NCBI RefSeq assembly: GCF_031181385.1
Contig: NZ_JAPSKV010000007.1
Coordinates: 62,001 to 126,000 of the forward strand
Reading direction: 5' to 3'
DNA length: 64,000 bases
From: Fredinandcohnia onubensis
GTDB lineage: Bacteria; Bacillota; Bacilli; Bacillales; Bacillaceae_L
The translations under genes and the position numbers were made by a program. The notes below the pieces were generated by a model. That model did no database searches and was not told the DNA's origin. It was given only the letters and a program-made list of their open reading frames with translations. Shown here one piece after another: positions 3,852-26,271 of this stretch. Position 1 is the stretch's first letter. Each line of letters opens with the position of its first letter.

Positions 3852-4541
3852 TTACTTACAATAAAAAACCTTATAGCTTACATCTTTGTCGTAATGCCAA
3901 ATCATAAAGATATCTTCTATTTCTTTGTTTGTAATTTTGTTGAATCTCTTTATATTCGCATAGTAATTTTTTCGAACTCTGTTTTCTCTTTCTGAGAGAA
4001 TGTGCATACCTTTTTCGATTAGCAGTCTTTCAATTGGCAGTAAATAGCCTGCACATCTAATGATATAAATCGTTGAACCAATTTTCGTCAAATCAAGCTC
4101 TTTTGGCTGATATTGATAGAATTCACTTTGTCTGCTAATCTCGTTTCGTAGCAACATAAATTCAAGCGAATTTTCCGTTAGTGTCCTCTCTTCCTGATCC
4201 ACTTCCGCCAGAAGCACACCCGTGTTTCTTTGGAAGTTCCAGTCTTGATACATTTGGTTGATCTTTATATTCAATAGCCCCTCTAACGTTTCCTGAATAG
4301 GCTCATAAAGATCTACCATTATATTTTTTCGGATCCTCTCTGCGGTTTCAATATCCTCTTTTTCAACGAGCTCATATTCAATTTTTGTCATGAATTTTTT
4401 TATGTGAACCACAATGTATTGTTCCGAAATCGACGTAAAGCAGGTTTCTGGACCTTTTCCAAATTTGGATTTTATTTGTTTGCTCACATAACTGCTGATT
4501 TGTGTTAATTCTTCCTGTTTTGTAATGTAACTCCTCGTCAT
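3852..4541 (-). CDS. MpsC/DUF2294-domain protein (paralogue 2)
   Basis: ISSYVSKQIKSKFGKGPETCFTSISEQYIVVHIKKFMTKIEYELV; likely ATG 4541 after AGGAGG. Confidence 0.75.
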   Translation of the reverse strand: MTRSYITKQEELTQISSYVSKQIKSKFGKGPETCFTSISEQYIVVHIKKFMTKIEYELVEKEDIETAERIRKNIMVDLYEPIQETLEGLLNIKINQMYQDWNFQRNTGVLLAEVDQEERTLTENSLEFMLLRNEISRQSEFYQYQPKELDLTKIGSTIYIIRCAGYLLPIERLLIEKGMHILSERENRVRKNYYANIKRFNKITNKEIEDIFMIWHYDKDVSYKVFYCK

Positions 4542-4574
4542 GCGATCTATTATCCTCCTAAAACGCAATAAAAA

Positions 4575-4611
4575 ATGGCCTAACCTCTACACAAAATAGA
4601 AGTTAGGCCAT
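4575..4611 (-). promoter_or_regulatory. Terminator-like hairpin B, nearly identical to hairpin A, directly upstream of DUF2294 paralogue 2
   Basis: Minus strand: ATGGCCTAACTTCTATTTTGTGTAGAGGTTAGGCCATTTTTTATT, then TTTTAGGAGG and the start codon. Confidence 0.65.
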
Positions 4612-4776
4612 GGTTAGACTTATTTGTATTCTACCATTTACCAATCTTTTCGAAAAATGAATTTTAATATTTTAAAAGATACTACTTTATTAGTTTCAAA
4701 TATTGAGACTAATGACTGCTAGACATTAATCATGCTCATTGTATCACGAAGTTACTATAAAGACAAATAAAACAAA

Positions 4777-6105
4777 CTATGAAGCCGTGTGTAGAAACTT
4801 GATCGAGAATATGGAGACACCAATTTTCCTACAGATTGTTACGTAATGCAGAAGGGCAAGTAAAACAGCACCCATATTCATGCCTATGATGATCCCTTCC
4901 ATTTGCAGTGTTTGAAGGGACCCTAAGGCGAACATAATCCCAAAAGATACGACAGTTGACCATACATTATGGATAAATGCATCCTTTACCAACCCTAACC
5001 CGATTAAATAGGCTTGCATCGGGATTAAGAAGAAATGGAATAAAAAATATGGCCACAACATTTGCAAATACACGGTGGCTGATGATGATTCAAAGAATAT
5101 ATGTGTAAGTGGTTCTGCAAAATAGTAAAAAATCACACAGGCTGGAACCCCGTATAGGAAGGTCATTCTCATTACCTGTTTGAGTAGGTTTTGCAGCATT
5201 GACATATCTCTCTTCGAATAGGCTTCTGATACGGTTGGAATTAACACGATTAGCAATGAATGGGCAATGAACGCTGGAAAAAAGCCTATTGTTAATGCGA
5301 CCCCTGTCATCAATCCAAAATGCTCCGTTGCGACCGCTGCGGGCATGCCTGCTTTTAGAAGAGCCGCTTTAATTAAAAATGGTTGAACGGCATGTGAAAT
5401 CGCATGAAAAATCCGCATTCCAGTTGTCGGTAAGGAAACAGCCAGTAGGTTTTTGCGTACAGCTTTTCCACTTAATGATGATGTCGGCCGATGGCCTAAT
5501 CTGCGATAGTGAATGAGATATTCATATCCTAAATAACCAAATACGATTAAATCACTTGCAACAAGTGTACATAATGCGATAAGGATTGAAGTATGAATTT
5601 CAAATTCAAGTAATTGATAAATAAACACTAACAAGATTAACTGGACTGCTTTACGAAGGAAATTCGCAAATGCAATTCGCCCCATCGATTGAATGCCCAT
5701 AAAATATCCCCTGGCAATTGATAGAAACGAGACGATGGGAATAAACAAGATGACGAGCCATCTAACAAATGGATGGTAATCATCGAAAACGGGGATAACT
5801 GGCAGAATCACAAATGCAAACGAAATAATAATCGCTGTAAATACAGTTGTTAAAACGGTGGCATGCTTTAGCATACTCTTGTGATACCTGTCCTCTTTTT
5901 CGGCAATAAATTTGGATATGGAAATAGGCAGCTCAAGACTTGCCAATATGACAACTAAAAAGATTGAAGGCAAAATGGTCATATATAATCCCATTCCGTG
6001 CCCACCGAGCTCTTTTGCCAGAACGAGATTGATTAAGAACTCCACACACTCACCAATAAATGCTGCGATAACCAGTAATAATGTTCCTTTAAAGAATGTA
6101 TTCAT
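4777..6105 (-). CDS. SpoVB/MATE-like polysaccharide biosynthesis (flippase) protein
   Basis: MNTFFKGTLLLVIAAFIGECVEFLINLVLAKELGGHGMGLYMTILPSIFLV..., multi-TM SpoVB-type; start chosen at ATG 6105. Confidence 0.85.
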   Translation of the reverse strand: MNTFFKGTLLLVIAAFIGECVEFLINLVLAKELGGHGMGLYMTILPSIFLVVILASLELPISISKFIAEKEDRYHKSMLKHATVLTTVFTAIIISFAFVILPVIPVFDDYHPFVRWLVILFIPIVSFLSIARGYFMGIQSMGRIAFANFLRKAVQLILLVFIYQLLEFEIHTSILIALCTLVASDLIVFGYLGYEYLIHYRRLGHRPTSSLSGKAVRKNLLAVSLPTTGMRIFHAISHAVQPFLIKAALLKAGMPAAVATEHFGLMTGVALTIGFFPAFIAHSLLIVLIPTVSEAYSKRDMSMLQNLLKQVMRMTFLYGVPACVIFYYFAEPLTHIFFESSSATVYLQMLWPYFLFHFFLIPMQAYLIGLGLVKDAFIHNVWSTVVSFGIMFALGSLQTLQMEGIIIGMNMGAVLLALLHYVTICRKIGVSIFSIKFLHTAS

Positions 6106-6367: not shown

Positions 6368-7924
6368 ATGAGTATATTAACAGTTTCAAATGTGAGCCAT
6401 GGTTTTGGTGATCGTGCAATCTTTAATGATGTTTCATTTCGTCTTTTAAAAGGTGAACACATAGGGTTGATCGGTGCAAATGGTGAAGGTAAATCAACAT
6501 TTATGAATATCATCACTGGAAAGCTTGAGCCTGATGCAGGGAAAATTGAATGGTCAAAAAATGTTCGTGTTGGATACCTTGACCAGCATACGGTTCTTGA
6601 AAAAGGAATGACCATCCGCGATGTATTAAATAATGCCTTCAAATATCTATTTGATATGGAAGCGGAAATGAATGAAATATACGGAAAAATGGGTGACGCA
6701 ACTCCTGAAGAACTTGAAAAAATGCTTGAGGACGTTGGAACTATTCAGGATACCCTTACAAACAATGACTTCTATGTTATTGATGCGAAGGTAGACGAAA
6801 TTGCCCGAGGGCTGGGTTTAGAGGATATCGGTCTTGAACGTGATGTTCAAGATTTAAGTGGTGGTCAGCGTACAAAGGTATTGCTTGCGAAGCTTTTACT
6901 TGAAAAGCCAGATATTCTATTACTGGATGAGCCTACCAACTATTTGGATGAGCAGCACATTATCTGGCTTAGACGTTATCTTCAAGAATATGAAAATGCG
7001 TTTATCCTGATTTCGCATGATATTCCATTTTTAAATAGTGTAATCAACCTGATTTATCATATGGAAAATCAAGAGCTTAATCGCTATGTTGGGGATTATG
7101 ATAACTTCCAGAAGGTCTATGAAGTGAAAAAACAACAGCTTGAGTCTGCTTATAAAAAGCAGCAGCAAGAGATTTCTGAGCTTAAAGACTTTGTTGCTCG
7201 AAACAAGGCCCGTGTTTCCACACGAAATATGGCAATGTCTCGCCAAAAGAAGCTTGATAAAATGGAAGTAATTGAGCTAGCGAAGGAAAAGCCGAAGCCA
7301 GAATTCAATTTTAGAACAGGTAAAACGTCAAGCAAGCTTATTTTTGAAACGAAGGATCTTGTGATTGGGTATGATGATCCACTTTCAAAACCGCTTAATC
7401 TTCGTATGGAAAGAGGTCAAAAGATTGCGTTGGTTGGAGCGAACGGAATCGGAAAAACAACTCTATTACGAAGTATCCTTGGTATGAACAAGCCACTATC
7501 TGGATCAGTTGAGCTAGGTGAGAACCAAGAAATCGGCTATTTTGAACAAGAAATTAAAGAAGCTAACTATAATACATGTATTGAGGAAATTTGGAGTGAA
7601 TTCCCTTCCTTCAACCAGTATGAAGTTCGTGCAGCACTCGCAAAATGTGGCTTGACAACAAAGCATATCGAAAGCAAGGTTGAAGTATTAAGTGGTGGGG
7701 AAAAAGCAAAAGTACGTCTTTGTAAATTAATTAATCGAGATACAAACATCCTTCTTCTTGACGAGCCAACAAACCATCTTGATGTTGACGCAAAAGACGA
7801 ACTTAAAAGGGCCCTTAAAGAATATAAAGGAAGCATCCTTATTATTTGCCACGAACCTGAATTTTACCACGATGTTGTGACAGATGTATGGAATGTTGAA
7901 TCTTGGACAACAAAAGTATTTTAA
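6368..7924 (+). CDS. ABC-F family ATP-binding protein (YfmM-like)
   Basis: Two ABC domains: GANGEGKST / LSGGQRTKVLLAKLL and GANGIGKTT / LSGGEKAKVRLCKLI, no TMDs, 518 aa. Confidence 0.92.
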   Translation: MSILTVSNVSHGFGDRAIFNDVSFRLLKGEHIGLIGANGEGKSTFMNIITGKLEPDAGKIEWSKNVRVGYLDQHTVLEKGMTIRDVLNNAFKYLFDMEAEMNEIYGKMGDATPEELEKMLEDVGTIQDTLTNNDFYVIDAKVDEIARGLGLEDIGLERDVQDLSGGQRTKVLLAKLLLEKPDILLLDEPTNYLDEQHIIWLRRYLQEYENAFILISHDIPFLNSVINLIYHMENQELNRYVGDYDNFQKVYEVKKQQLESAYKKQQQEISELKDFVARNKARVSTRNMAMSRQKKLDKMEVIELAKEKPKPEFNFRTGKTSSKLIFETKDLVIGYDDPLSKPLNLRMERGQKIALVGANGIGKTTLLRSILGMNKPLSGSVELGENQEIGYFEQEIKEANYNTCIEEIWSEFPSFNQYEVRAALAKCGLTTKHIESKVEVLSGGEKAKVRLCKLINRDTNILLLDEPTNHLDVDAKDELKRALKEYKGSILIICHEPEFYHDVVTDVWNVESWTTKVF

Positions 7925-7928
7925 TTTT

Positions 7929-7968
7929 AAAAACGCAAAGCACCCCATTCAGGTGTTTTGCGTTTTTT
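7929..7968 (+). terminator. Intrinsic terminator after the ABC-F gene
   Basis: AAAACGCAAAGCACCCCATTCAGGTGTTTTGCGTTTTTT. Confidence 0.85.
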
Positions 7969-7974
7969 CATATG

Positions 7975-8080
7975 AACCATAGGAACCATAGGGACGGTTC
8001 TATTGGTCCTCAATGGACACTATTATTAAATTACATCCACGGGAACCAGGGGAACCGTCCCCCTGGTTCTACCCTGGTTC
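7975..8080. repeat. REP-like element of the GGGACGGTTC type, copy 2
   Basis: AACCATAGGGACGGTTCTATTGGTCC...GAACCAGGGGAACCGTCCCCCTGGTTC, same family as 6258-6340. Confidence 0.8.
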
Positions 8081-8143
8081 TAAAAATAAAAATAGTTGCA
8101 AATTACAAGTATTTATTGTATAAATAAATCAGAGGTGAAAATA

Positions 8144-8599
8144 ATGGAAAATACGAACTTAAGAAGCTTATTTCAAATGATTGTAAGACGATTTGGTTTC
8201 CTAAATGAACAGTGCTGTGAAAATTGCTGTGGAGAAGAAATTAGCCTTTTACAAAGTCATATTTTATACGAAATAAAAAGACAGAATGATCCTTCCATGC
8301 AAGAAGTTGCTGGAGCTTTAGGTATCGATATAACGACATTTAGCCGTCAAATAAAAACACTCGTAGACAGAGAACTTGTTAAGAAAACGCCTCATCCTAA
8401 TGATAACAGAATCAATATTCTTTCACTTACAGAAAAAGGTGAAACAATGGAGCTTAATATCGATCAAGAAATGAATCATTATCTAAATCAAATCCTATCT
8501 CATCTAAGCGAATATGAGAGAGAATCAGTAATAAGATCTGTAAAATTATTAAACGATGCAATGAAAAAATCAGAAAGCTATTGTTGTCCTCCTAAATAG
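8144..8599 (+). CDS. MarR-family transcriptional regulator with N-terminal Cys cluster (CCENCCGEE)
   Basis: Winged-helix MarR pattern (SMQEVAGALGIDITTFSRQIKTLVDRELVKKTPHPNDNRINILSLTEKG); ATG 8144 after GAGGTG. Confidence 0.9.
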   Translation: MENTNLRSLFQMIVRRFGFLNEQCCENCCGEEISLLQSHILYEIKRQNDPSMQEVAGALGIDITTFSRQIKTLVDRELVKKTPHPNDNRINILSLTEKGETMELNIDQEMNHYLNQILSHLSEYERESVIRSVKLLNDAMKKSESYCCPPK

Positions 8600-8655
8600 G
8601 AGGACACTATTTGAAACAATACTTGCATTTTGCAAATAACAAAGGAGTGAATACA

Positions 8656-9522
8656 ATGTGGAAAGACGTATTTTTTGACTTTTTATCAATTGCTCTTGAA
8701 TTAACCGTGCTATTTTTTCTTATATCATTTGTCATAAGCATGCTTCAAGGATTAATTCCTTACGAAAAACTTGAGAAGTATTTATTTCATTCTAATAAAG
8801 TGGTAGGAGCAACTGTTGCTATATTATTAGCATTCATAACACCATTTTGTTCATGTTCGACCATCCCTATAGTTGTTGGAATGCTTCAGAAAAAGATGAG
8901 ATTCGGTTTTGTAATGGTGTTCCTGTTCGCATCTCCTGTTCTTGATCCAACCATACTTACTTTAATGGGCGCACTATTAGGTTGGAAAGTGGCTGTTTTA
9001 TACACGGTTCTTACCACTGTTTTTTCGATTATTATCGGATTTACACTTGAAGCACTTGGATTTGAAAGTGCTGTTAAAAATGTTATAGTCAAAGGCTTAA
9101 ACGAAGGAGCCACAAAGTTCAATATGAAAAAGGCTTGGGCAGAGACGTTATCCCTTATGAAAACAGTCTACCCCTATCTCATTATTGGTGCTTTAATTGG
9201 TTCTTTGATTCATGGGGCAGTTCCAACCGGTTTTATATCTACGTATTTTGGTGGAAATGAATGGTGGTTAATACCCTTGGCAGCGATCATTGGGATTCCA
9301 CTCTATATAAGGCTATCAACCATGATTCCAATCGCTCAAATTATGATTGCCAAGGGAATGGCTCTAGGTCCTGTGATGGCAATTATGATTAGTTCAACAG
9401 GTGCAAGTTTACCAGAAGTCGCTTTATTAAATTCCATTTTTCATAAACGATTGGTTGTCGCCTTTTTACTCTCGGTTTTTACAATGTCTACTTTGTCTGG
9501 TACTTTGTTCTACTTCATGTAA
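8656..9522 (+). CDS. ArsP-like permease (DUF318 family)
   Basis: TPFCSCSTIPIVVGMLQKKMRFGFVMVFLFASPVLDPTI motif, multi-TM; ATG 8656 after AAAGGAG. Confidence 0.85.
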   Translation: MWKDVFFDFLSIALELTVLFFLISFVISMLQGLIPYEKLEKYLFHSNKVVGATVAILLAFITPFCSCSTIPIVVGMLQKKMRFGFVMVFLFASPVLDPTILTLMGALLGWKVAVLYTVLTTVFSIIIGFTLEALGFESAVKNVIVKGLNEGATKFNMKKAWAETLSLMKTVYPYLIIGALIGSLIHGAVPTGFISTYFGGNEWWLIPLAAIIGIPLYIRLSTMIPIAQIMIAKGMALGPVMAIMISSTGASLPEVALLNSIFHKRLVVAFLLSVFTMSTLSGTLFYFM

Positions 9523-9578
9523 GGTATTAATCTTTTAAAAGGTTGATATAAATATTAATCCATTAGGAGGAGATTATT

Positions 9579-9716
9579 ATGTTTAAAGATTTTATGAGCA
9601 AATTTAGAAATTTTTCGAAGGAAGACTGCTGCTCCATTTCCATTGAAGAAGTTAAGGATGAAAAAACACAAGATGCAGCCGAATGCTGTGATAATCAGCA
9701 ATCTTGTTGTAGCTAA
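9579..9716 (+). CDS. 45-aa Cys-pair-rich miniprotein, absent from the ORF track
   Basis: Translation MFKDFMSKFRNFSKEDCCSISIEEVKDEKTQDAAECCDNQQSCCS; SD AGGAGGAG; directly downstream of the permease. Confidence 0.8.
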   Translation: MFKDFMSKFRNFSKEDCCSISIEEVKDEKTQDAAECCDNQQSCCS

Positions 9717-9718
9717 AT

Positions 9719-9750
9719 TAATGCCCCTCTTCCAATGAAGGGGGGCATTG
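9719..9750 (+). terminator. Hairpin after the Cys-rich operon
   Basis: AATGCCCCTCTTC-CAAT-GAAGGGGGGCATT; no strong T tract. Confidence 0.55.
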
Positions 9751-9778
9751 GCTTGGATCCTAGCTTACTAGGTCCATT

Positions 9779-12067
9779 TTATCCATCTACCTGATATAAC
9801 TCCTCATCCACTTTATCAAGCAAAAAGTTCGTAAGATCCGTTCCAAAAAAGTGAAGCCTGTGTAATGGACGGGTCATGGATACGTAGAGAAGCTTAATGT
9901 CTATTTCATTATTATCGAATACTTCCTCGTTCGAATAAACCAGCACCGCGTCAAATTCCAAGCCTTTTGACAGATTCGAACTGACAATGACGACCTCTTC
10001 CTTATTAATTTCATCATTTTCTTTTAAAAGCTGCACAGGGAGATCACTATATTTATTGAAGGCTTTCGCTAGTTTTTGGCACTCTTTATTGGTCTTGCCG
10101 ACGATCGCGATGGTTTTCATATTTTCATCATAAAGAGTCTTTATTACCTCAGTTATGGTGCGAACTGTTTCTTTCTCAGACATACTAATTTGATGAAAAA
10201 CAGGCTTATCTCCGTGGCGGACAACTGGCTCAACCATTGGTAGATTAAGGTGAAGTAGCTCAAGTAATTGGTTTGCTGCATTCATAATCTCAATGGTGGT
10301 TCGGTAGCTTTTTTGTAGGGTCTTATAGGTTGCCCTTGGAAAGATGTTATCCCTAACTGTTGCCCAGTTGTTAATGCCTCGGTAAGAGTGAATTCCTTGG
10401 GCTAAATCTCCTACAATTGTAAACATGTCGGTTTCAAGTGCTGTTTTTAATGCGGCTAGCTGAAAATAGCTATAATCCTGCGCCTCATCAATAACAACAT
10501 TGCGGGCCATCAGCTCCTTTTTCACCCCATAAAGCTTTGCCTTCAAATATAAAAGTCCAGCTAAATCCTCAAGTTCATATGATTTTTTAAGTTGTTTTTG
10601 ATAGTCCATAAAGAATTGTATTTGCTCATCGGTCAGAATCCCTGACGCGTAGGTTGGAAATAGTTCAGTCACAAACCTTTGAAAATAGTAGAAAACATCG
10701 TGATTTTGAAGCTTCTTAATATAGGTATTAACTGCCGTACGGGATTGCTTCGTGATTTCTTCAATAAGCTCTGCCTTTTTATCCAGCGCTTTTGTCACAT
10801 AACGACGGCGCTTTTCCGGGTCGATTTGCGTTTTGAATAATACGTTATCCAGCTTATCATCATAAAATTTTGTCACTTTATGAAGCATTTTTTTCTTTTC
10901 CAACCTGACTGTGTTTTGAAGCACTTTTTTCACTTTATCAATCCGCTTATAATATGGAAGATAGCGATATTCATAGGTCATTAAATGATGAATATCTCTC
11001 GCCTTATATAGCCGAAACTTTGATACAAAGAAGTCCTCTTTTGGTAGCAAGGAGCTTAAAATATCCTCTACATAATGCTCCAGCATATCCCGGTACTCAA
11101 GAGAACCTTTAAATGCTGATATCCATTTAATCATTTCAGGATTTTTATATTCATCATGGATGAATCCGAGTAGCTTCGCGTCTGCTTTCGCGAGCTTAAT
11201 CGGTTTTCCAAGGCATTTTTTCACAAAGTCAACAAACGTCGTTTGCTGGATGTGATCAACACCCAATTCTGGAAGCACCTCAGAAATATAATCGATAAAA
11301 AGGCGATTCGGTGCCAGAATCATCAGCTGGTCAGGAGAAAAATACTCTGCATAGGTGTAAATAAAATAAGAGATACGGTGTAGGGCAATAGTTGTTTTCC
11401 CACTTCCTGCGGCTCCTTGGACAATGATTGGTTTGTTGAGGTCCGCACGAATGATACTGTTTTGCTCCTCCTGAATTGTTGAGACAATATCAGTTAAGCG
11501 GTTACTTGCACTTTCAGACAACGACTTTTGCAGAAGCTCATCGGTAGTTGTTAAATCAACATCCCGAATTTCCGCGAGCGCCCCATCCTCAATGATGAAC
11601 TGTCGCTTTAAAGCTAAGTACCCTTTAAACTCCTCCCCCTCTGCCTTATATGAGACATACCCTAGGCGACCGTCATAATAGAGGTTAGCTACAGGTGATC
11701 GCCAATCCACAATAATTGGCTGTTGGGTTTCCTTATCAAAGAGAGAGACCTTCCCGAAGTAGAGAACCTCCTCTTTTCCCGTTTCTTCCCGATTAAAATT
11801 AATTCTCGCGAAGTATGGCTTGTTGCGGTTTCTCTTCAGATTTCGCACCTCTTCATGTGTTCTTCTTAGTAAGGTTGAATTCGTTAACATATTAAGGTAA
11901 CTCAAGCTACTGTCTTTGAAATCAACACCATCCAGGGCTCCCTTTAAATTTTCACGAAAGTTCTCCTCAGTTGACTCTGATGCCTGAATGACAATATCCA
12001 TGTACTTTTTCGTAAAATCCAACCGTTCTGTTTCCTCATCGAAGTTAGGATGTTTCTCCTCCATCAT
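9779..12067 (-). CDS. helD: HelD-like UvrD-family helicase (RNA polymerase-associated)
   Basis: Walker A QGAAGSGKTTIALHRISYF, DEAQDYS, SYRTT motifs; HelD-type N-terminal region and size; likely start ATG 12067. Confidence 0.88.
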   Translation of the reverse strand: MMEEKHPNFDEETERLDFTKKYMDIVIQASESTEENFRENLKGALDGVDFKDSSLSYLNMLTNSTLLRRTHEEVRNLKRNRNKPYFARINFNREETGKEEVLYFGKVSLFDKETQQPIIVDWRSPVANLYYDGRLGYVSYKAEGEEFKGYLALKRQFIIEDGALAEIRDVDLTTTDELLQKSLSESASNRLTDIVSTIQEEQNSIIRADLNKPIIVQGAAGSGKTTIALHRISYFIYTYAEYFSPDQLMILAPNRLFIDYISEVLPELGVDHIQQTTFVDFVKKCLGKPIKLAKADAKLLGFIHDEYKNPEMIKWISAFKGSLEYRDMLEHYVEDILSSLLPKEDFFVSKFRLYKARDIHHLMTYEYRYLPYYKRIDKVKKVLQNTVRLEKKKMLHKVTKFYDDKLDNVLFKTQIDPEKRRRYVTKALDKKAELIEEITKQSRTAVNTYIKKLQNHDVFYYFQRFVTELFPTYASGILTDEQIQFFMDYQKQLKKSYELEDLAGLLYLKAKLYGVKKELMARNVVIDEAQDYSYFQLAALKTALETDMFTIVGDLAQGIHSYRGINNWATVRDNIFPRATYKTLQKSYRTTIEIMNAANQLLELLHLNLPMVEPVVRHGDKPVFHQISMSEKETVRTITEVIKTLYDENMKTIAIVGKTNKECQKLAKAFNKYSDLPVQLLKENDEINKEEVVIVSSNLSKGLEFDAVLVYSNEEVFDNNEIDIKLLYVSMTRPLHRLHFFGTDLTNFLLDKVDEELYQVDG

Positions 12068-18626: not shown

Positions 18627-18653
18627 AGCCGACTCCCAGAGTCGACTTTTTTA
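18627..18653. terminator. Convergent-gene terminator
   Basis: AAAAGCCGACTCCCAGAGTCGACTTTTTT. Confidence 0.75.
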
Positions 18654-19880
18654 TTGCGTAATCGGTAATATAATCTCTACCTTTGTTCCTTTTCCTGGTT
18701 TACTATTGATGGTAATTTTCCCATGATGGTCTTCGATGATTTTTTTAGAAACCATTAATCCTAAACCTGTTCCATAATCCTTTGTTGTAAAGAATGGTTC
18801 GAAAAGCTTTTCCTGTACATCCTCAGGAATTCCACAGCCCTCATCACTAATGAGAATTGATACCATGTTATTGGCGGTTTGGCTACCTCTAATCGTTAAC
18901 ATACCACCCTCTGGCATGGATTCAAAGCTATTTTTAATGAGATTTAAGAAAACCTGTTTTATTTGTTTCTCATCACAATCGATATCCAGAACAGCCTCAT
19001 CCATTTTCAGGTCAATTATAACATTCCTCGCGTTCTCAGATTGCTCAAAGATCGAAAGGACATATTCAATAAGTTTCTTTACATTACATTTCGTCACATT
19101 AATTTGCCTTGGTTTGCCGATAACCAGCAAATCATTAAGGATTGAATCAATTCGATCAATTTCTTGCTCCATGATCATATATTGCATTTCATCCTCTTTA
19201 TGTTTTTCCCGCTGAAGCTGGGTAAACCCTTTTAAGGACGCCAACGGATTACGAATTTCATGTCCAACCGTAGTCGCCATCTGCCCGACAAATGCAAGCT
19301 TTTCCTTCTTGCGGAGCTCCTCATGCGTTTCCGAAAGTGCTTCGATATACGAGTAGAAACGGGTTAGGAGGATGTAGGCAATAAGCGCAAACATACCAAT
19401 CAGTAGAATTATTGCCAATACAATACCATTTCCTAATAATAGACCAATCAATCCATATTTCATTACAATTGCAATTGTAACTGTCAAAAAGAATCTCTTA
19501 TTTATAAAGATGGGAGAGAATAGCAAAAAAGCAATTTCAGCTGCATTTCCACTCTTAAAAGGTTCATTACTCCCCCAATAAGTGACTACATCATCAATTC
19601 CAGTGACTAGAAGATAAGACAACACATAAAAATATTTGACTAAATGTAGCTTACCTATTTTCCTTAAATAGAATGAGACTGGAATAAGGACAATTATTAA
19701 GATATAGGCTCCATATGCAAAATCAGTAGGAAGACCAATCTTAGCGTTAATAAATATAGGGTATATAAAATAATAAAAGAAATCATATAACAGGAAAATG
19801 CTATAAAACAATATTAAATATAGACGTAGCGCCTTCTTCTCTTCATGTAAAAGAAGAGAGTTATGTTTTAGATAAGACAT
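18651..19880 (-). CDS. Membrane histidine kinase with the same multi-TM sensor as the 21286..22434 HD-GYP protein
   Basis: HisKA VGHEIRNPLASLKGFTQL, HATPase DEGCGIP/GTGLGL; N-terminus YDFFYYFIYP...SGNAAEIAFLLFSPIFINKRFF...AYILLTRFYSYIEALS. Confidence 0.9.
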   Translation of the reverse strand: MSYLKHNSLLLHEEKKALRLYLILFYSIFLLYDFFYYFIYPIFINAKIGLPTDFAYGAYILIIVLIPVSFYLRKIGKLHLVKYFYVLSYLLVTGIDDVVTYWGSNEPFKSGNAAEIAFLLFSPIFINKRFFLTVTIAIVMKYGLIGLLLGNGIVLAIILLIGMFALIAYILLTRFYSYIEALSETHEELRKKEKLAFVGQMATTVGHEIRNPLASLKGFTQLQREKHKEDEMQYMIMEQEIDRIDSILNDLLVIGKPRQINVTKCNVKKLIEYVLSIFEQSENARNVIIDLKMDEAVLDIDCDEKQIKQVFLNLIKNSFESMPEGGMLTIRGSQTANNMVSILISDEGCGIPEDVQEKLFEPFFTTKDYGTGLGLMVSKKIIEDHHGKITINSKPGKGTKVEIILPITQ

Positions 19881-19918
19881 ATCTATCCTCACTTAGTTAA
19901 ATGATTATGCATTTTTCA

Positions 19919-21121
19919 TTATATATTATTTTCCTCACCTGAGTATATAGTCCTATATTCTCTCTTACTTTCGAATTTTTTAAATAATGAGTAAGTAAGA
20001 AGCGGAAGGAAGATCAATATCTGCGCAGAGAAAACGAAAGCATCCCAGAACTTTAATGATGATAATGACTCAGTAAACCCTGGGAGAACATTTATCATAA
20101 TATATACTAATTGAGGTAAATAGTAAAAGCCAAACATAGAGAAGGTCAACAAAATTCCTATCAAAAAGAAAAAGGAATAGAAAACAATCACTCTGTTATC
20201 TGTTGCGTTTTGTTTTCTGTTAAATAGTCCTCTTATAAATTCAATACCACTTTCCATCAGATTATAATTCCCTGTACTATTTTCAAAAACATAATAAAGA
20301 TCTGTTTTCATATAAATACAGCATTGATAGATGATTCGAATCACAATATCGAAAGTAATCAAACCAATAATTCCATGAATAATCTCATTTGAAAATAGAT
20401 TAGACACTTTTAAGACTAGGGTAACTAAAAGTATGAAACTATCAAAATATATTCCTGCTAAAAATAATAGGTTTCGTTCCTTTGAAGAAAGCTTCCATGC
20501 TTGTGTAAGGTCCGTTTCGAACACGACAAAAAACAGTCGATTACCGATTTGCAATTTTGTTGGAAGATCAAATGAACGGATAGCCAAAATATGTCCACTT
20601 TCATGTAAAAAGATTAAAACAATTGAAATTCCGGCATACAAAAGAATATTAAACATCATTGTATCAAAGACAAATAAATCCTGATAACGAGGAAAAAGAT
20701 TAGGATCTTTCACAAATAGAAAGAGATTCACTAACAAAAATAATGGATAGAAAAAACGAGTAAACCGATTAAAGAAAACCTTCCCTAGTTTCGGTGATAT
20801 CCAATTAAATCCTAAGTCTTCATAATTACGTGTCTTTTCTATTCTTACTTTTGCTCCATCTACCATTTCTACTAAATCTAAATCCAGCAATTGTTGGCCA
20901 AAATCAAGTAGATCAATCTCTTCACCTGCATATTTTTCGATGAGTAGGTGTTCTATTTCACCAAGTGATAAACCTTTGTTAATCAACTCAATTGCATCAA
21001 CACAGACTACTGGCATTTCATAAAATTCATGAGTTACTAAATCTTCGATAATATAATTCTTATTATCTTTACGTATCACTAACTCGTGTAAACATAAAAT
21101 AGAATCAGCAGTTAATTGCAA
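19919..21121 (-). CDS. Membrane zinc metalloprotease (M50/YydH-like) with PqqD/RRE-like N-terminal domain
   Basis: TTG start after AGGTG; N-terminal VIRKDNKNYIIEDLVTHEFYEMPVVCVDAIELINKGLSLGEIEHLLIEKY resembles PqqD folds; HExxH-type LHESGHILA in a TM segment. Confidence 0.75.
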   Translation of the reverse strand: MQLTADSILCLHELVIRKDNKNYIIEDLVTHEFYEMPVVCVDAIELINKGLSLGEIEHLLIEKYAGEEIDLLDFGQQLLDLDLVEMVDGAKVRIEKTRNYEDLGFNWISPKLGKVFFNRFTRFFYPLFLLVNLFLFVKDPNLFPRYQDLFVFDTMMFNILLYAGISIVLIFLHESGHILAIRSFDLPTKLQIGNRLFFVVFETDLTQAWKLSSKERNLLFLAGIYFDSFILLVTLVLKVSNLFSNEIIHGIIGLITFDIVIRIIYQCCIYMKTDLYYVFENSTGNYNLMESGIEFIRGLFNRKQNATDNRVIVFYSFFFLIGILLTFSMFGFYYLPQLVYIMINVLPGFTESLSSLKFWDAFVFSAQILIFLPLLTYSLFKKFESKREYRTIYSGEENNI

Positions 21122-21149
21122 TCTTCACACCTACTTTTCTTCATAATAA

Positions 21150-21179
21150 AAGGATGCCCCATTTTTCGTAAGCATCCTT
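21150..21179 (-). terminator. Attenuator-like hairpin between the 25-aa peptide gene and the protease gene
   Basis: Minus strand AAGGATGC-TTACGAAAAATGGG-GCATCCTT followed by TTATT. Confidence 0.6.
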
Positions 21180-21189
21180 CTTTCATAAA

Positions 21190-21267
21190 TTATCCTCTTG
21201 GGCCTCCGGGTAAAAAAGCACACCACCAACAAGTAGCTTTGATTTTTTTAAGCTTTTTGATTATCAC
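21190..21267 (-). CDS. 25-aa candidate precursor/signal peptide MIIKKLKKIKATCWWCAFLPGGPRG (not in ORF track)
   Basis: GTG start 8 nt after SD AGGAGG, beginning 18 nt after the HD-GYP stop and ending 68 nt before the protease start; basic N-terminus and CWWC core. Confidence 0.7.
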   Translation of the reverse strand: MIIKKLKKIKATCWWCAFLPGGPRG

Positions 21268-21285
21268 TTTTTTCACCTCCTGCCA

Positions 21286-22434
21286 TCAAACTGGATTTTT
21301 TTGTATATCTATCCATTGCGGGTAAACCTTTTTAAATAATGCAACTAGATTAGGATCAAATTGAGTACCTTCCCCTTGAAGGATTCGATTATAAGCTTCT
21401 TCAACAGGTAGTGCTCCTCGATATGACCGGGATGAAGTCATTGCATCAAAGGCATCTGCTATTGCAGTGATTCGAGCATTTAAAGGAATATCATTTCCTT
21501 TTAGCTGGTCGGGATATCCTTTACCATCCCATCTCTCATGATGCGATCTAATAATACTTATACTCGAGCCAAGACCTTTCACATTTTTTACTGCTTCTTC
21601 TCCAACGACTGGATGTGTTTTTATAATTTCATACTCTTCATTCGTTAATTTTGCTGGTTTCATAAGTATAGAATCGGGAATATTGACCTTACCTATATCA
21701 TGCAGCAAACAAGCATAATTAAAAGATTTTAATTCATCCTGAGAAAAAGCTCCTAACTCTTTCGCTAATACCATTGCATATTTAGCAACTCTCTCACTAT
21801 GACCTCTAGTATAAGGATCTTTTAATTCAAGTGCTGCGATAACACCTTTTACTATCCCTTCCATCTGTTGATCATAAGCTGTGCTTAGTGCATTCACATA
21901 TCCATAAAATCTGTTAAGTAGTATATATGCAACTATAGCCAGTACCGTAGTTAATACAATTGGTAGAGCTACCATTGTAGTCCCAAGTATTGCTCCACTC
22001 AATATATATTTAACTGTTAATCCTATAGAAACTACCCAGAAATATTTTTTATTTACAAAGATTGGAGAAAATAGGACTAGAAAAACCTCAACTGCGTTCC
22101 CACTTGAGAACAATCCAGGTTTGTCCCAGTAAGTGATTAGATCATTAACAAAACTTAAAATAGTATATGCAATGAAAAAATAGTATTTTGTTAAATGCTG
22201 TTTATTCCTATGATTATTATAGAATATTACTGGAATTAGCATTGCCATAACTAGGTAAATAACGTATATAAACTTGTTAGGAAATCCTGTAGCTATAGCA
22301 GTCTCATCACTTGGATAAATAAAATAAAAAAAGATATCATATGCTACCAAGATAATAACAAATAAGATACTATACCATATAGTAGTTCTTTTCTCCTCGT
22401 ATAGTAATACCAATCTTTTATTCATTTTCTGCAT
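21286..22434 (-). CDS. Membrane HD-GYP phosphodiesterase with multi-TM sensor
   Basis: HSERVAKYAMVLAKELG...LLHDIGKVNIPDSIL...HHERWDGKGYPDQLKG is a canonical HD-GYP; N-terminus homologous to the 18651..19880 kinase. Confidence 0.92.
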   Translation of the reverse strand: MQKMNKRLVLLYEEKRTTIWYSILFVIILVAYDIFFYFIYPSDETAIATGFPNKFIYVIYLVMAMLIPVIFYNNHRNKQHLTKYYFFIAYTILSFVNDLITYWDKPGLFSSGNAVEVFLVLFSPIFVNKKYFWVVSIGLTVKYILSGAILGTTMVALPIVLTTVLAIVAYILLNRFYGYVNALSTAYDQQMEGIVKGVIAALELKDPYTRGHSERVAKYAMVLAKELGAFSQDELKSFNYACLLHDIGKVNIPDSILMKPAKLTNEEYEIIKTHPVVGEEAVKNVKGLGSSISIIRSHHERWDGKGYPDQLKGNDIPLNARITAIADAFDAMTSSRSYRGALPVEEAYNRILQGEGTQFDPNLVALFKKVYPQWIDIQKNPV

Positions 22435-22727: not shown

Positions 22728-23360
22728 TTATTTTACAAGAGAATGTTTAAATGCGTATATGACCGCCTGTGTTCGATCTTGTACCTCTAGCTTACTTAAT
22801 ATGTTACTAACATGCACTTTTACCGTTTTTAGCGCAATAAAAAGTTCGTCAGCGATCTCTTGATTCGTTTTTCCATCCGCGATTAAAAGCAAGATTTCCA
22901 TTTCACGGTTTGTTAATTCTTCATGTGGAAGCTGTTTTTCCTTTTGTCTCATTCGAACCATCATTTTCCCTGTAACTTCTGGCTCTAAAACTGACTGCCC
23001 ATGATAGGTTTTACGGACGGCTTCAGCAATTTCACTCGCCTTCGATGTTTTTAACATGTAGCTCGTTGCACCCGCTTCTAAAGCAGGATATACCTTTTCA
23101 TCATCAATAAAGCTTGTGACGATGATGATTTTTGCTTCAGGCCAGCTCTCAATGATTCTTCTTGTTGCCTCAATACCGTCCATTTCCTTCATTACGAGGT
23201 CCATTAATACAATGTCAGGTCGAAGCTCTAGTGCTAATTCAACCGCTATTTTTCCGTCATCTGCTTCACCTACGACTTCAATATCTGGCTGTGCAGATAA
23301 ATAGGAGGAAACTCCTATTCTTACCATTTCATGATCATCGACAAATAATACTTTAATCAT
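22728..23360 (-). CDS. liaR: NarL/LuxR-family response regulator, LiaR-like
   Basis: [32 protein letters not shown]; Lux[44 protein letters not shown]; lia-type operon context. Confidence 0.88.
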
Positions 23361-24393
23361 TTTCTCCACCCTCTAACACTGGTACTTTTACTTCAATCCG
23401 AGTTCCTTTGTCTTTAAGACTAACGGTCCGCATTGTACCGCCTATTTCCACTGCACGTTCATACATATTTTGAAGTCCATAGGAACCAGTCTTCGCTTGT
23501 TCCACATCAAATCCAATCCCATCATCAACGATTCTTAAAATGACAAATTCATCCCTTTTAATAAGCAGGACTTCTAACTGATTTGCTTTTGCGTGGCGGA
23601 GGGTGTTTGAAACTGACTCTTGAAGAATGCGAAATAAGTGGTCCTCGACCCCTTTATCAATTTGAAAGTCCTCAATCTTTGTTTCAATTGTTACGGGTAC
23701 CTTTTGTGATAATTCAACTAATAGCTCCTGAATTCCTTCTTGGAGTGTCTTTCCTTTTAATGCAACTGGACGTAAATGGAGTAAGAGTGCGCGCATTTCT
23801 AGTTGTGATTGATGAATCATTTCCTCAACAAGTTTAAACTGTTTTGCCTCACGTTCATCTTTTCGTGGCTTTGACTCATTAATAGCAGACATCATCATCG
23901 ACGCAGCAAAGAGTTGTTGGCTAACGGAGTCATGGAGTTCCCTCGCTAAACGGTTACGCTCATCGGAAACAATTTGTTGTATTCGTTTTTCCTGATCCTC
24001 AGCCTTTTCATTTGCAAGTTTTTGAGAAAGCTTCGTTTGCTCAGCGATATGAGTTTGTAGCTTTTTAATCCGCTCCCAAATGGTGTTGAATTCAGCTGTT
24101 TGGTTAACTGGGATGTCAGAAATGGACCTCCCTTGTTCAATTTGATAAATCGCGTTAGAGACAGAGAGTAGCTGTTTTCTCCATAAATACCCTGACAATA
24201 TCCCAAAAACAAGCCCAGCAATTAAGCTCAGACTTAAGGTTAAAATAATATAAGGTAAATCCATTAGCTTTGTTTGCCAAAGTGCGGCCCAATTTGCTAA
24301 AGGAAAGGCCATGAATGCAATGACATGAGCCAATACAAATAAAAACACCGAGACACAAATACCGACAATGATTTGTTTTTTTACGGTACTCAT
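23353..24393 (-). CDS. liaS: Sensor histidine kinase, LiaS-like
   Basis: HisKA_3 [23 protein letters not shown]; two TM; overlaps the flanking lia genes. Confidence 0.88.
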
Positions 24394-25124
24394 GCTCGTT
24401 TCACCTCAAGGTCCCCCACTCCAATCGAAGTGACTATCTTAAGCTTGGGTTCGACGTGATCATATTGTTCAGTCTGATAATGAAGTGTTTGGTTCACCGT
24501 TTTAGTGTCCTGATTTTCAAAGATCGTTGTGGCTCCATAAAGGACCGAATGATGTACCTTCACTTCAATTTCGTAAGGAACAAAGATTTGAACATTCCCT
24601 ATTACATTTCGAATAAAAATAACTGATTCACCTTTAGGTAAAACCGTATAGCTTAAATCAATAATCGTATCGCCGATTCCTGACTGAATGTTTACATCGT
24701 TCCATTCATACACATACTCTGGTGTTTTTTGTTGACCCAACACGATGTTTTGAAACAATGGTTGACGTCTAAGAATCGGTTCTTGTTTCGATGTTTTTTC
24801 CGATTCTTTTATTTCAGGTTTTATATAATGTGGTTTTTTCTTAGATTGTAAAAATTGAATAAGTAAATATATAAGAACGGCAAGAATCAAAAACTTTACT
24901 GTCATCATATTTAAAATGGTAAAAGCTAAACTAATCCATCCAAACCAAAACAGGATTTTACCAAATGTTCGCGGCAACTTTTTACGACCAATATAAATAC
25001 ATCCAAACGATATCACAAAAGAGAAAAGGACTCCGCCATTAAAAAACGTAACTTCAATGATTAATAAAATGATTCCAAGAAGAAAAAATGCATTAAGATT
25101 GTCTGATTTGATTTTATTTAACAT
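24390..25124 (-). CDS. liaF: LiaF-like membrane inhibitor protein
   Basis: N-terminal TM cluster plus C-terminal DUF2154-like region (SGIGDTIIDLSYTVLPKGESVIFIRNVIGNVQIFVPYEIEVKVHHSVLYGATTIF). Confidence 0.88.
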   Translation of the reverse strand: MLNKIKSDNLNAFFLLGIILLIIEVTFFNGGVLFSFVISFGCIYIGRKKLPRTFGKILFWFGWISLAFTILNMMTVKFLILAVLIYLLIQFLQSKKKPHYIKPEIKESEKTSKQEPILRRQPLFQNIVLGQQKTPEYVYEWNDVNIQSGIGDTIIDLSYTVLPKGESVIFIRNVIGNVQIFVPYEIEVKVHHSVLYGATTIFENQDTKTVNQTLHYQTEQYDHVEPKLKIVTSIGVGDLEVKRA

Positions 25125-25232
25125 ATCCGGATCCTCCCTTCATTTTCATTGAATGCATTGATTATCGCCCGTAAGGTAGAGGGGCTAAGAAGACGTAGAT
25201 TGTCTACGCCTTCTTAGAATACCATGTTTTCA

Positions 25233-25880
25233 CTATGAAATTGAATGTGTTTCTTCATTTTTCACTTCTTTTTCAAGCTGTGCAATTCTTGCATCGATTG
25301 TATTGCGATGATAAGAGGAATTCACTTGATGCTCGAGACGATCAAGATATGATTCCATATCTTCAAAAGTTCTTGAAGCATTATTCGTATATGCATTTGT
25401 GTCTAGCACTTGATTCATGCGATGATTAGCTCGTGCAATATTCTCACGCCCCATTAATTCCATACGCTTAATATGCATATCTTTAAGCTTGTGCTTCATT
25501 TCCTCATACTTTTTCTCAAGTCCGATAAGTTCTGTAGCCGTATTTTTTAATGCTTCCTGTAATTTAGCAGCACGTTCTTCATATGAAACTTGTTCCTGAA
25601 CAGCAAACTCATATAATTCTGTTTCACCAGCTCGCTGTGCTACACCCGCTTGGTATTTACGCTTTTCTGCAAGATCCGCCGCCTCACGGTGTTCTCTTGC
25701 AAATTGATCCTTTAGAGAGTGCTGACGCTCGACAAGCTTGCGAACCTTCTCAACTTCTGCCTCACATTGACGTAGATACTGGTTAAGCAACGCGATTGGG
25801 TTTTTCTTTTCTTTTTCATCTAACACTCCATGAAAATCAGCTAAAATAGTGTCCTTTATACGAGTTAATAGGTTTGCCAT
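25233..25880 (-). CDS. liaH: PspA/IM30-family phage shock protein, LiaH-like
   Basis: MANLLTRIKDTILADFHGVLDEKEKKNPIALLNQYLRQCEAEVEKVRKLVERQ; coiled-coil PspA pattern; SD AGGAG. Confidence 0.88.
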   Translation of the reverse strand: MANLLTRIKDTILADFHGVLDEKEKKNPIALLNQYLRQCEAEVEKVRKLVERQHSLKDQFAREHREAADLAEKRKYQAGVAQRAGETELYEFAVQEQVSYEERAAKLQEALKNTATELIGLEKKYEEMKHKLKDMHIKRMELMGRENIARANHRMNQVLDTNAYTNNASRTFEDMESYLDRLEHQVNSSYHRNTIDARIAQLEKEVKNEETHSIS

Positions 25881-25923
25881 TTGTATCATTCTCCTTTTTA
25901 ATGAGTATTCTTATTTCGAAAAA

Positions 25924-26271
25924 TTAATGTTTGTTCAATTCAGCCCATTGTCTTTCAAAGTTAGTGAATGGGTCAGTTGATTCAGATACGACTTCTTTTT
26001 TTCCTTTTTTCCAGTTTTTAATGACAACATAGAGGATGTATGCTGCAACGACGCCTAGAATTGCAGGTGCATTTGAAGCTGACGCAATAAGAGCGATAAC
26101 CCCGACAATTGCCCACAGTACCTTACCTAGTGTTGAATCAGTCTTCATAAACTGTTTAAATGCAAAATACAGAATGGCTAGGCTAATTGCTAAACCAATC
26201 AGTGGTCCAACCTGCGATAAAAGCACAATTGCTGCAATACCTCCAAGAATAAACAATCCGAATTTTTTCAT
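25924..26271 (-). CDS. liaI: Small membrane protein, LiaI-like
   Basis: Multi-TM MKKFGLFILGGIAAIVLLSQVGPLIGLAISLAILYFAFKQF, first gene before liaH. Confidence 0.75.
   Translation of the reverse strand: MKKFGLFILGGIAAIVLLSQVGPLIGLAISLAILYFAFKQFMKTDSTLGKVLWAIVGVIALIASASNAPAILGVVAAYILYVVIKNWKKGKKEVVSESTDPFTNFERQWAELNKH

Follow-up and report, generated by a model that had tools for sequence, protein, structure and literature searches.

In Agr systems, a short cationic precursor is processed by a dedicated membrane protease and sensed by a multi-transmembrane (TM) receptor, and peptide and receptor alleles are exchanged. In the Eep/RseP pheromone systems, such as the enterococcal sex pheromones and SHP/Rgg, an active C-terminal peptide is released from a precursor of about 20 residues by a site-2-type protease of the M50 family. 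In ComQXPA and other pherotype systems, the active end of the peptide is its most variable part and the locus is polymorphic (PMC4008528; PMC4408185). Among the inputs to cyclic di-GMP (c-di-GMP) signalling, a 2022 review lists direct evidence for two quorum ligands, BDSF and autoinducer-2 (AI-2), and for no peptide (PMC8846402). Here, we analysed an operon in a 64,000-nt stretch of the Fredinandcohnia onubensis genome (the window; contig NZ_JAPSKV010000007.1, positions 62,001 to 126,000), which encodes a MASE12-HD-GYP protein, a 25-aa peptide with a CWWC motif, a membrane protease with RRE and M50 domains, and a MASE12 histidine kinase. An earlier note, made from the letters alone, had described four co-directional minus-strand genes, and all of these open reading frames (ORFs) were found where it had placed them. 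We consider it probable that the operon encodes a system for self-sensing by a pheromone, in which a peptide matured by the RRE-M50 protease is sensed through MASE12 by two receptors, a c-di-GMP phosphodiesterase and an orphan kinase.

The peptide and protease genes are tightly linked to the MASE12-HD-GYP gene across the Bacillales. We assembled 53 loci from three kinds of search, so that only the genomes found via MASE12 alone give a count unbiased by protease or peptide; the peptide gene and then the protease gene lay 3′ of a full-length MASE12-HD-GYP gene in 22/22 of these genomes and in 53/53 loci overall. A peptide with a Shine-Dalgarno (SD) sequence, the leader and CWWC or a near variant was present in 53/53 loci, far above chance. 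When genome contigs were searched with the protease, 24 loci were identified, from the genera Fredinandcohnia, Neobacillus, Gracilibacillus, Ornithinibacillus and Bacillus, and each of them carried a peptide of the form MKIRKLKK(V/I)K(T/A)T-CWWC-tail or a near variant. Loss of the peptide beside homologous proteases, which the earlier note had taken as the sign of a mistaken reading, was therefore not what we observed. MASE12 scored above the cut-off in 25/200 genomes of the order (family search), 22 of which have the protease, and a phylum-wide sample of 399 genomes gave two matches, both in the same order. Conversely, the protease-profile search found the CWWC-type protease in 23 genomes, of which 22 have MASE12 and the 23rd is interrupted by a contig end. 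Sensor and protease thus occur together, contrary to the second sign of error named in the earlier note, an absence of such co-occurrence in other genomes. A degenerate DNA pattern for the leader/CWWC segment matched 35/398 genomes, and its reversed control matched 0. The order of the core stays constant while its surroundings vary: the kinase gene precedes the core in Neobacillus, follows it in the genus of the window and is absent in others. A mobile or viral origin was rejected, as relatives of the protease are absent from IMG/VR viral contigs. Three genomes of one genus have only a MASE12 kinase, and a comparison of L075 with L085, both of this genus, shows the HD-GYP-peptide-protease genes lacking as one block beside a retained MASE12 kinase; identity is 69-85% in the flanking genes but only about 29% in the kinase sensor.

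The 52 distinct peptide-gene sequences encode 50 distinct peptides with 47 distinct tails of 2-10 residues. Ratios of nonsynonymous to synonymous polymorphism (pN/pS), computed on the 48/52 sequences of standard length, were 0.17 for the leader and 0.88 for the tail, and CWWC showed no amino-acid change (0), indicating a leader under selection and a hypervariable tail. Position 2 of the tail is F, W or Y in 48/52 sequences, and two members carry CWVC or CWIC instead of CWWC. The active peptide probably includes CWWC, because the shortest tail consists of two residues.

The DNA identity of the window to loci L009 and L010 was 77-79% over MASE12, 85-89% over the HD domain and 74-82% over the peptide gene and hairpin, while it was 92-96% over RRE, M50 and kinase and 95-97% over the upstream genes. 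Silent divergence between the window and close relatives showed the same step at the HD-GYP-peptide segment. These results indicate that the HD-GYP receptor and the peptide have been exchanged together as a mosaic block, but the protease and kinase have not, and the block resembles a swapped pherotype cassette. This exchange also bears on an unlikely alternative, in which the peptide would be a cell-autonomous membrane micropeptide that is never exported, binds MASE12 in the membrane of the cell that made it and is removed by the M50 protease, so that receptor activity is set within one cell. The absence of a linked exporter would suit such a peptide, as would its very small size, cationic N-terminus and hydrophobic C-terminus, and the HD-GYP and peptide genes lie end to end or overlap (median gap 4 nt; overlap in 24/51 loci), so that co-translation and co-insertion are possible. 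However, 47 tails and cassette exchange among close relatives fit specificity between strains, and a private regulator would have no evident reason to diversify.

We then compared the tail with each part of the neighbouring proteins. With the HD domain, M50 and RRE controlled for, tail distance was correlated with MASE12 divergence of the HD-GYP protein (partial r -0.29, permutation p 0.0005), and no correlation appeared with M50 (0.01), RRE (0.01) or the HD domain (-0.06). Along the HD-GYP protein, the correlation stops near residue 190, at the junction of sensor and enzyme, and it was retained after thinning to 40 loci (-0.19, p 0.001). As the permutation test only partly removes relatedness, we take the covariation as strong, not final. 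A variable signal that covaries with the sensor domain of its receptor characterises pherotype systems, and the tail and MASE12 covary in this way. Both the covariation and the cassette exchange could stem from linkage alone if MASE12 senses something unrelated and the two adjacent genes, which are exchanged together, merely travel in one recombining cassette. We regard this as quite unlikely, because the covariation survived control for silent-site divergence of both gene halves (partial r -0.25, p 0.001), whereas the HD domain, which lies between MASE12 and the peptide, gave only -0.03. Taken together, three findings favour the peptide-sensing interpretation put forward in the earlier note: the tail is hypervariable, it covaries with MASE12, and receptor and peptide are exchanged in the manner of a cassette.

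The common membrane sensor that had been noticed in both end genes is Pfam MASE12 (PF20971), which scored 129.6 bits in the HD-GYP protein (E 1.6e-37) and 116.2 bits in the kinase (E 2e-33) against a cut-off of 27, and the outputs differ as described, HD-GYP in one and HisKA with HATPase_c in the other. The HD-GYP protein also matches Pfam HD_5/HD, and in its AlphaFold2 model the HD-GYP domain matches 4mcw, 4r8z and 9rbz; a search for structural relatives of MASE12 returned PDB matches only to the HD-GYP domain and none to MASE12. Mean pairwise identity within the protein is 42% in the MASE12 part and 71% in the HD-GYP part. Because H245-D246 and HHERWDGKGYP are conserved among 25 HD-GYP homologues, and the host genome contains 19 GGDEF matches, c-di-GMP turnover is a plausible output of the operon, with hydrolysis predicted for the HD-GYP domain. 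Two loci show other arrangements of MASE12 genes. L082 carries a receptor duplication, with tandem MASE12-HD-GYP genes (7638-8783 and 9020-10216), one peptide behind the second and no linked kinase. In L079 (7907-9514), a MASE12-PAS-HisKA-HATPase kinase, with the same sensor plus PAS, lies divergently beside the core operon.

In the protease, the HESGH motif falls in a predicted TM helix, as the earlier note had claimed; H173, E174 and H177 are invariant, and HExGH and the CCIYMKTD segment are unchanged throughout the alignment. The window protein did not reach the threshold of Pfam Peptidase_M50 (15.5 bits vs a cut-off of 27.2), and a PDB sequence search with the protease gave no match, while Peptidase_M50 was matched by 23/25 homologues with E values no higher than 0.1 and as low as 2.7e-5. 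By motif and predicted fold, not by Pfam threshold, it classifies as a divergent M50 member. The RRE-like N-terminus, likewise claimed earlier, is borne out by both sequence matches and predicted fold. In the AlphaFold model (pLDDT 80), this region forms a bbb-aaa domain of three strands and three helices, a winged helix of the RRE/PqqD type, and Foldseek ranked RRE-leader complexes of TbiB1 (lasso peptide) first, with PqqD (5sxy) and SpoIVFB lower; E values were modest (>= 0.06), with RRE-match probabilities near 1. By sequence, the window protein matches NCBIfam WgkC at 9e-4, and the weak library matches of the homologues include the daptide HExxH protease (14/25), WgkC (8/25), Pfam PqqD (6/25) and YydH/LiaK (2/25). 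The conservation of the leader suggests that the RRE binds it. Several loci differ around this gene. In L020, a group II intron (reverse transcriptase and maturase, 4599-5888; region ~3990-6000) lies between the peptide and protease genes, and all four system genes stay open and the peptide is present. Directly 3′ of the protease gene in two Gracilibacillus genomes (L025 7190-8251 and L027 7254-8249), a subtilase (Peptidase_S8) gene replaces that of the kinase and could encode a further protease for processing or degradation.

Just upstream of the operon, the window carries a minus-strand envelope-stress module (22728-26271) of LiaR/LiaS/LiaF-like and PspA/LiaH-like genes. It comprises a LuxR-type regulator (22728-23369), a HisKA_3 kinase, and LiaF-like and PspA-like genes, and forms a separate unit. 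The earlier note had stated that no response regulator is nearby, which does not hold, since this LuxR-type/LiaSR-type regulator lies only ~290 nt upstream. Among the 24 loci first inspected, those that have the module beside the operon all belong to close relatives of the window. The neighbourhood may nevertheless be more than chance, by analogy with B. subtilis, in which a Lia-type module reacts to YydF, an epipeptide processed by YydH. The adjoining LiaFSR/PspA module would also suit a modified antimicrobial peptide of the epipeptide or daptide kind, with the MASE12 proteins as self-sensors of the producer, and so would the resemblance of the protease to the daptide HExxH and YydH/LiaK proteases of ribosomally synthesized and post-translationally modified peptide (RiPP) systems. 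In B. subtilis, YydH is the presumed protease of YydF (PMC7026026). However, this explanation is very unlikely, given that the operon encodes neither a modifying enzyme nor an ABC exporter and contains no gene for immunity, that the receptor coevolving with the tail carries signalling outputs, and that the Lia neighbourhood is not kept outside the window's close relatives.

A terminator-like hairpin follows the peptide stop and scored above the best shuffled control in 48/52 loci; in the window it reaches -14.4 kcal/mol (z -5.0). As a partial terminator, it would be consistent with a peptide transcript more abundant than that of the protease. The tandem Trp codons followed by such a hairpin also recall a Trp/Cys attenuator controlling the protease gene, which we rejected as hardly tenable: the leader is conserved as protein (pN/pS 0.17), the CWVC/CWIC members lack tandem Trp codons, the word of the hairpin 3′-arm (antiterminator) occurs in the ORF end in 0/52 sequences, and the downstream gene is unrelated to Trp or Cys synthesis.

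The features of the operon are given in Table 1. The SD sequence AGGAGG was found just before the peptide start, within the 18 nt that the earlier note had given between the HD-GYP stop and this start, and the gene 3′ of the kinase lies on the opposite strand.

Table 1. Coordinates of the operon and associated elements in the window
Feature	Position	Strand	Remarks
MASE12-HD-GYP protein	21286..22434	-	MASE12 ~residues 13-173 and HD-GYP domain ~195-365; proposed peptide receptor
Precursor peptide, 25 aa, MIIKKLKKIKATCWWCAFLPGGPRG, GTG start	21190..21267	-	Conserved leader, CWWC, hypervariable tail; SD AGGAGG upstream
Terminator-like hairpin, GGATGC...GCATCC then T-rich	21148..21181	-	Between peptide and protease genes; conserved
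RRE-M50 intramembrane protease, TTG start	19919..21121	-	RRE ~residues 1-88; HESGH 173-177; CCIYMKTD 267-274
MASE12-HisKA-HATPase_c histidine kinase	18651..19880	-	Without cognate response regulator gene
Spo0A-box-like TTTGACGAA, one mismatch to TTTGTCGAA	22525..22533	-	Upstream of operon; read from sequence; weak for the window itself

A link of the kinase to the sporulation phosphorelay, through Spo0F and control by Spo0A, is plausible. The genome encodes a Spo0F that shares 82% identity with the B. subtilis sequence used as query. In the 300 nt before the first gene, 26/53 operons contain the Spo0A-box core TGTCGAA, compared with 17/431 other genes from these loci (p 2e-17). This core is the top-ranked of 630 anagrams for enrichment upstream of operons and lies ~105-125 nt before the kinase start in most Neobacillus loci. 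We do not go beyond plausible, because the window itself offers just the one-mismatch site TTTGACGAA.

We propose the following mechanism. The short precursor, with its cationic leader, CWWC and variable tail, would be overproduced owing to the partial terminator after its gene, and its conserved leader would be held by the RRE of the membrane protease. The M50 domain would then cleave in or at the membrane and so release the C-terminal part of the precursor, which most likely comprises CWWC and the tail. After secretion, the mature peptide would act in autocrine fashion, and its recognition by MASE12 of the HD-GYP protein would alter c-di-GMP hydrolysis. The second MASE12 protein, the orphan kinase, would respond to this peptide or to a related ligand and would probably signal to Spo0F and Spo0A, and Spo0A would in turn bind upstream of the operon.

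Several observations weigh against parts of this proposal. The kinase part scored higher with the hidden Markov model of AtoS (250 bits) than with that of KinD (213 bits), which weakens a KinD assignment. MASE12 of the kinase tracks the tail weakly (-0.19, and -0.06 when conditioned on MASE12 of the HD-GYP protein), and some genomes keep the MASE12 kinase without the peptide, three of them in one genus of the order sample with the kinase alone and no HD-GYP-peptide-protease genes; therefore, the kinase may read another ligand, or the part of the peptide that is conserved. TGTCGAA is missing from half of the operons, and that of the window is at -285, near the end of the upstream gene. No exporter gene is linked to the operon. 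Finally, we infer the mature peptide, its export and the polarity of the signal, and the lack of a known mature form counts against the proposal, as does the linkage explanation weighed above.

Homologous RRE-M50 genes also occur in a second setting. Eleven loci of other Bacillales (L126-L136) combine a ThiF/MoeB-type adenylating enzyme, an RRE-M50 protease and one to five genes for peptides of ~20 aa, which often form tandem arrays whose members share one leader but differ in their tails; examples are MKIEVKKTEKLKPTFMPYGG, MKKIKIKKVEKLVPLICHYR and MKKIVVRKLETVSVPQLRPGT. These proteases are more distant, and their genomes are mostly without MASE12. The sister loci share with the operon the homologous protease and short peptides, whose MKIxVxKxEKL leader is similar, whereas they carry the adenylating enzyme instead of receptors, repeated peptide genes, no CWWC and no MASE12. 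They possibly represent an undescribed MccB-like RiPP family. Since they also carry ~20-aa peptides, the RRE-M50 protease family appears generally paired with very short precursors, and the sister loci suggest a wider, largely unannotated set of precursors of 20-25 aa tied to such proteases.

In a literature search that mostly did not cover subscription journals, we found no description of the operon, the CWWC motif, the leader string, or a combination of RRE, M50, quorum sensing and kinase, and no functional description of the MASE12 sensor domain. We know of no earlier peptide signal that acts directly on a c-di-GMP enzyme, so that the operon, if our interpretation is true, would provide the first. 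MASE12 would thereby gain a likely ligand class, and three central decisions of Bacillus, namely quorum, c-di-GMP lifestyle and sporulation entry, would be linked in one compact operon. The 47 natural tails with their cognate receptors make this directly testable, and the conserved leader flags the precursor in any genome. The chances are about even for the broader claim of a new family of peptide quorum sensing in Bacillales, in which a pheromone directly gates a membrane c-di-GMP phosphodiesterase, a single RRE-M50 protease matures it without a modifying enzyme or linked exporter, a second receptor leads to the sporulation phosphorelay, and alleles are exchanged as pherotype cassettes.

As the earlier note had stated, the layout does not match agr, com or yyd, and AgrB, ComQ/ComA, radical SAM and ABC exporter genes are absent from the operon. 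ComQXPA comes close in its short precursor with a conserved N-part and a variable, Trp-containing, active C-terminus, its multi-TM receptor and its polymorphic communication-group locus. However, the operon has neither the ComQ isoprenyl transferase nor ComA, its maturation relies on RRE-M50, its main receptor would be an HD-GYP enzyme rather than a kinase, and its precursor has 18-26 aa compared with 52-73 in ComQXPA. The Agr systems resemble it in the traits listed at the outset, but the operon has a zinc M50 protease with an RRE, a HisKA kinase, a c-di-GMP output and no match to the AgrB family; with a zinc M50 protease in place of the cysteine protease AgrB, there is no acyl-enzyme route to a thiolactone. 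The Eep/RseP pheromones are alike in precursor length, protease type and active C-terminus, whereas their protease is general and unlinked and their receptor usually cytoplasmic; in the operon, a dedicated protease with an RRE of its own is linked to a dedicated receptor. The YydFGHIJ epipeptide, daptide and WgkC RiPP systems share RRE/PqqD-like recognition and M50-type maturation proteases, while the operon lacks a radical SAM or other modifying enzyme and an ABC gene, and its product is tied to receptors. In RpfR (BDSF) and the AI-2 dCACHE cyclase, a quorum ligand acts directly on a c-di-GMP enzyme, as proposed here, but those ligands are fatty acids or AI-2 in Gram-negative hosts, whereas the ligand proposed for the operon is a peptide.

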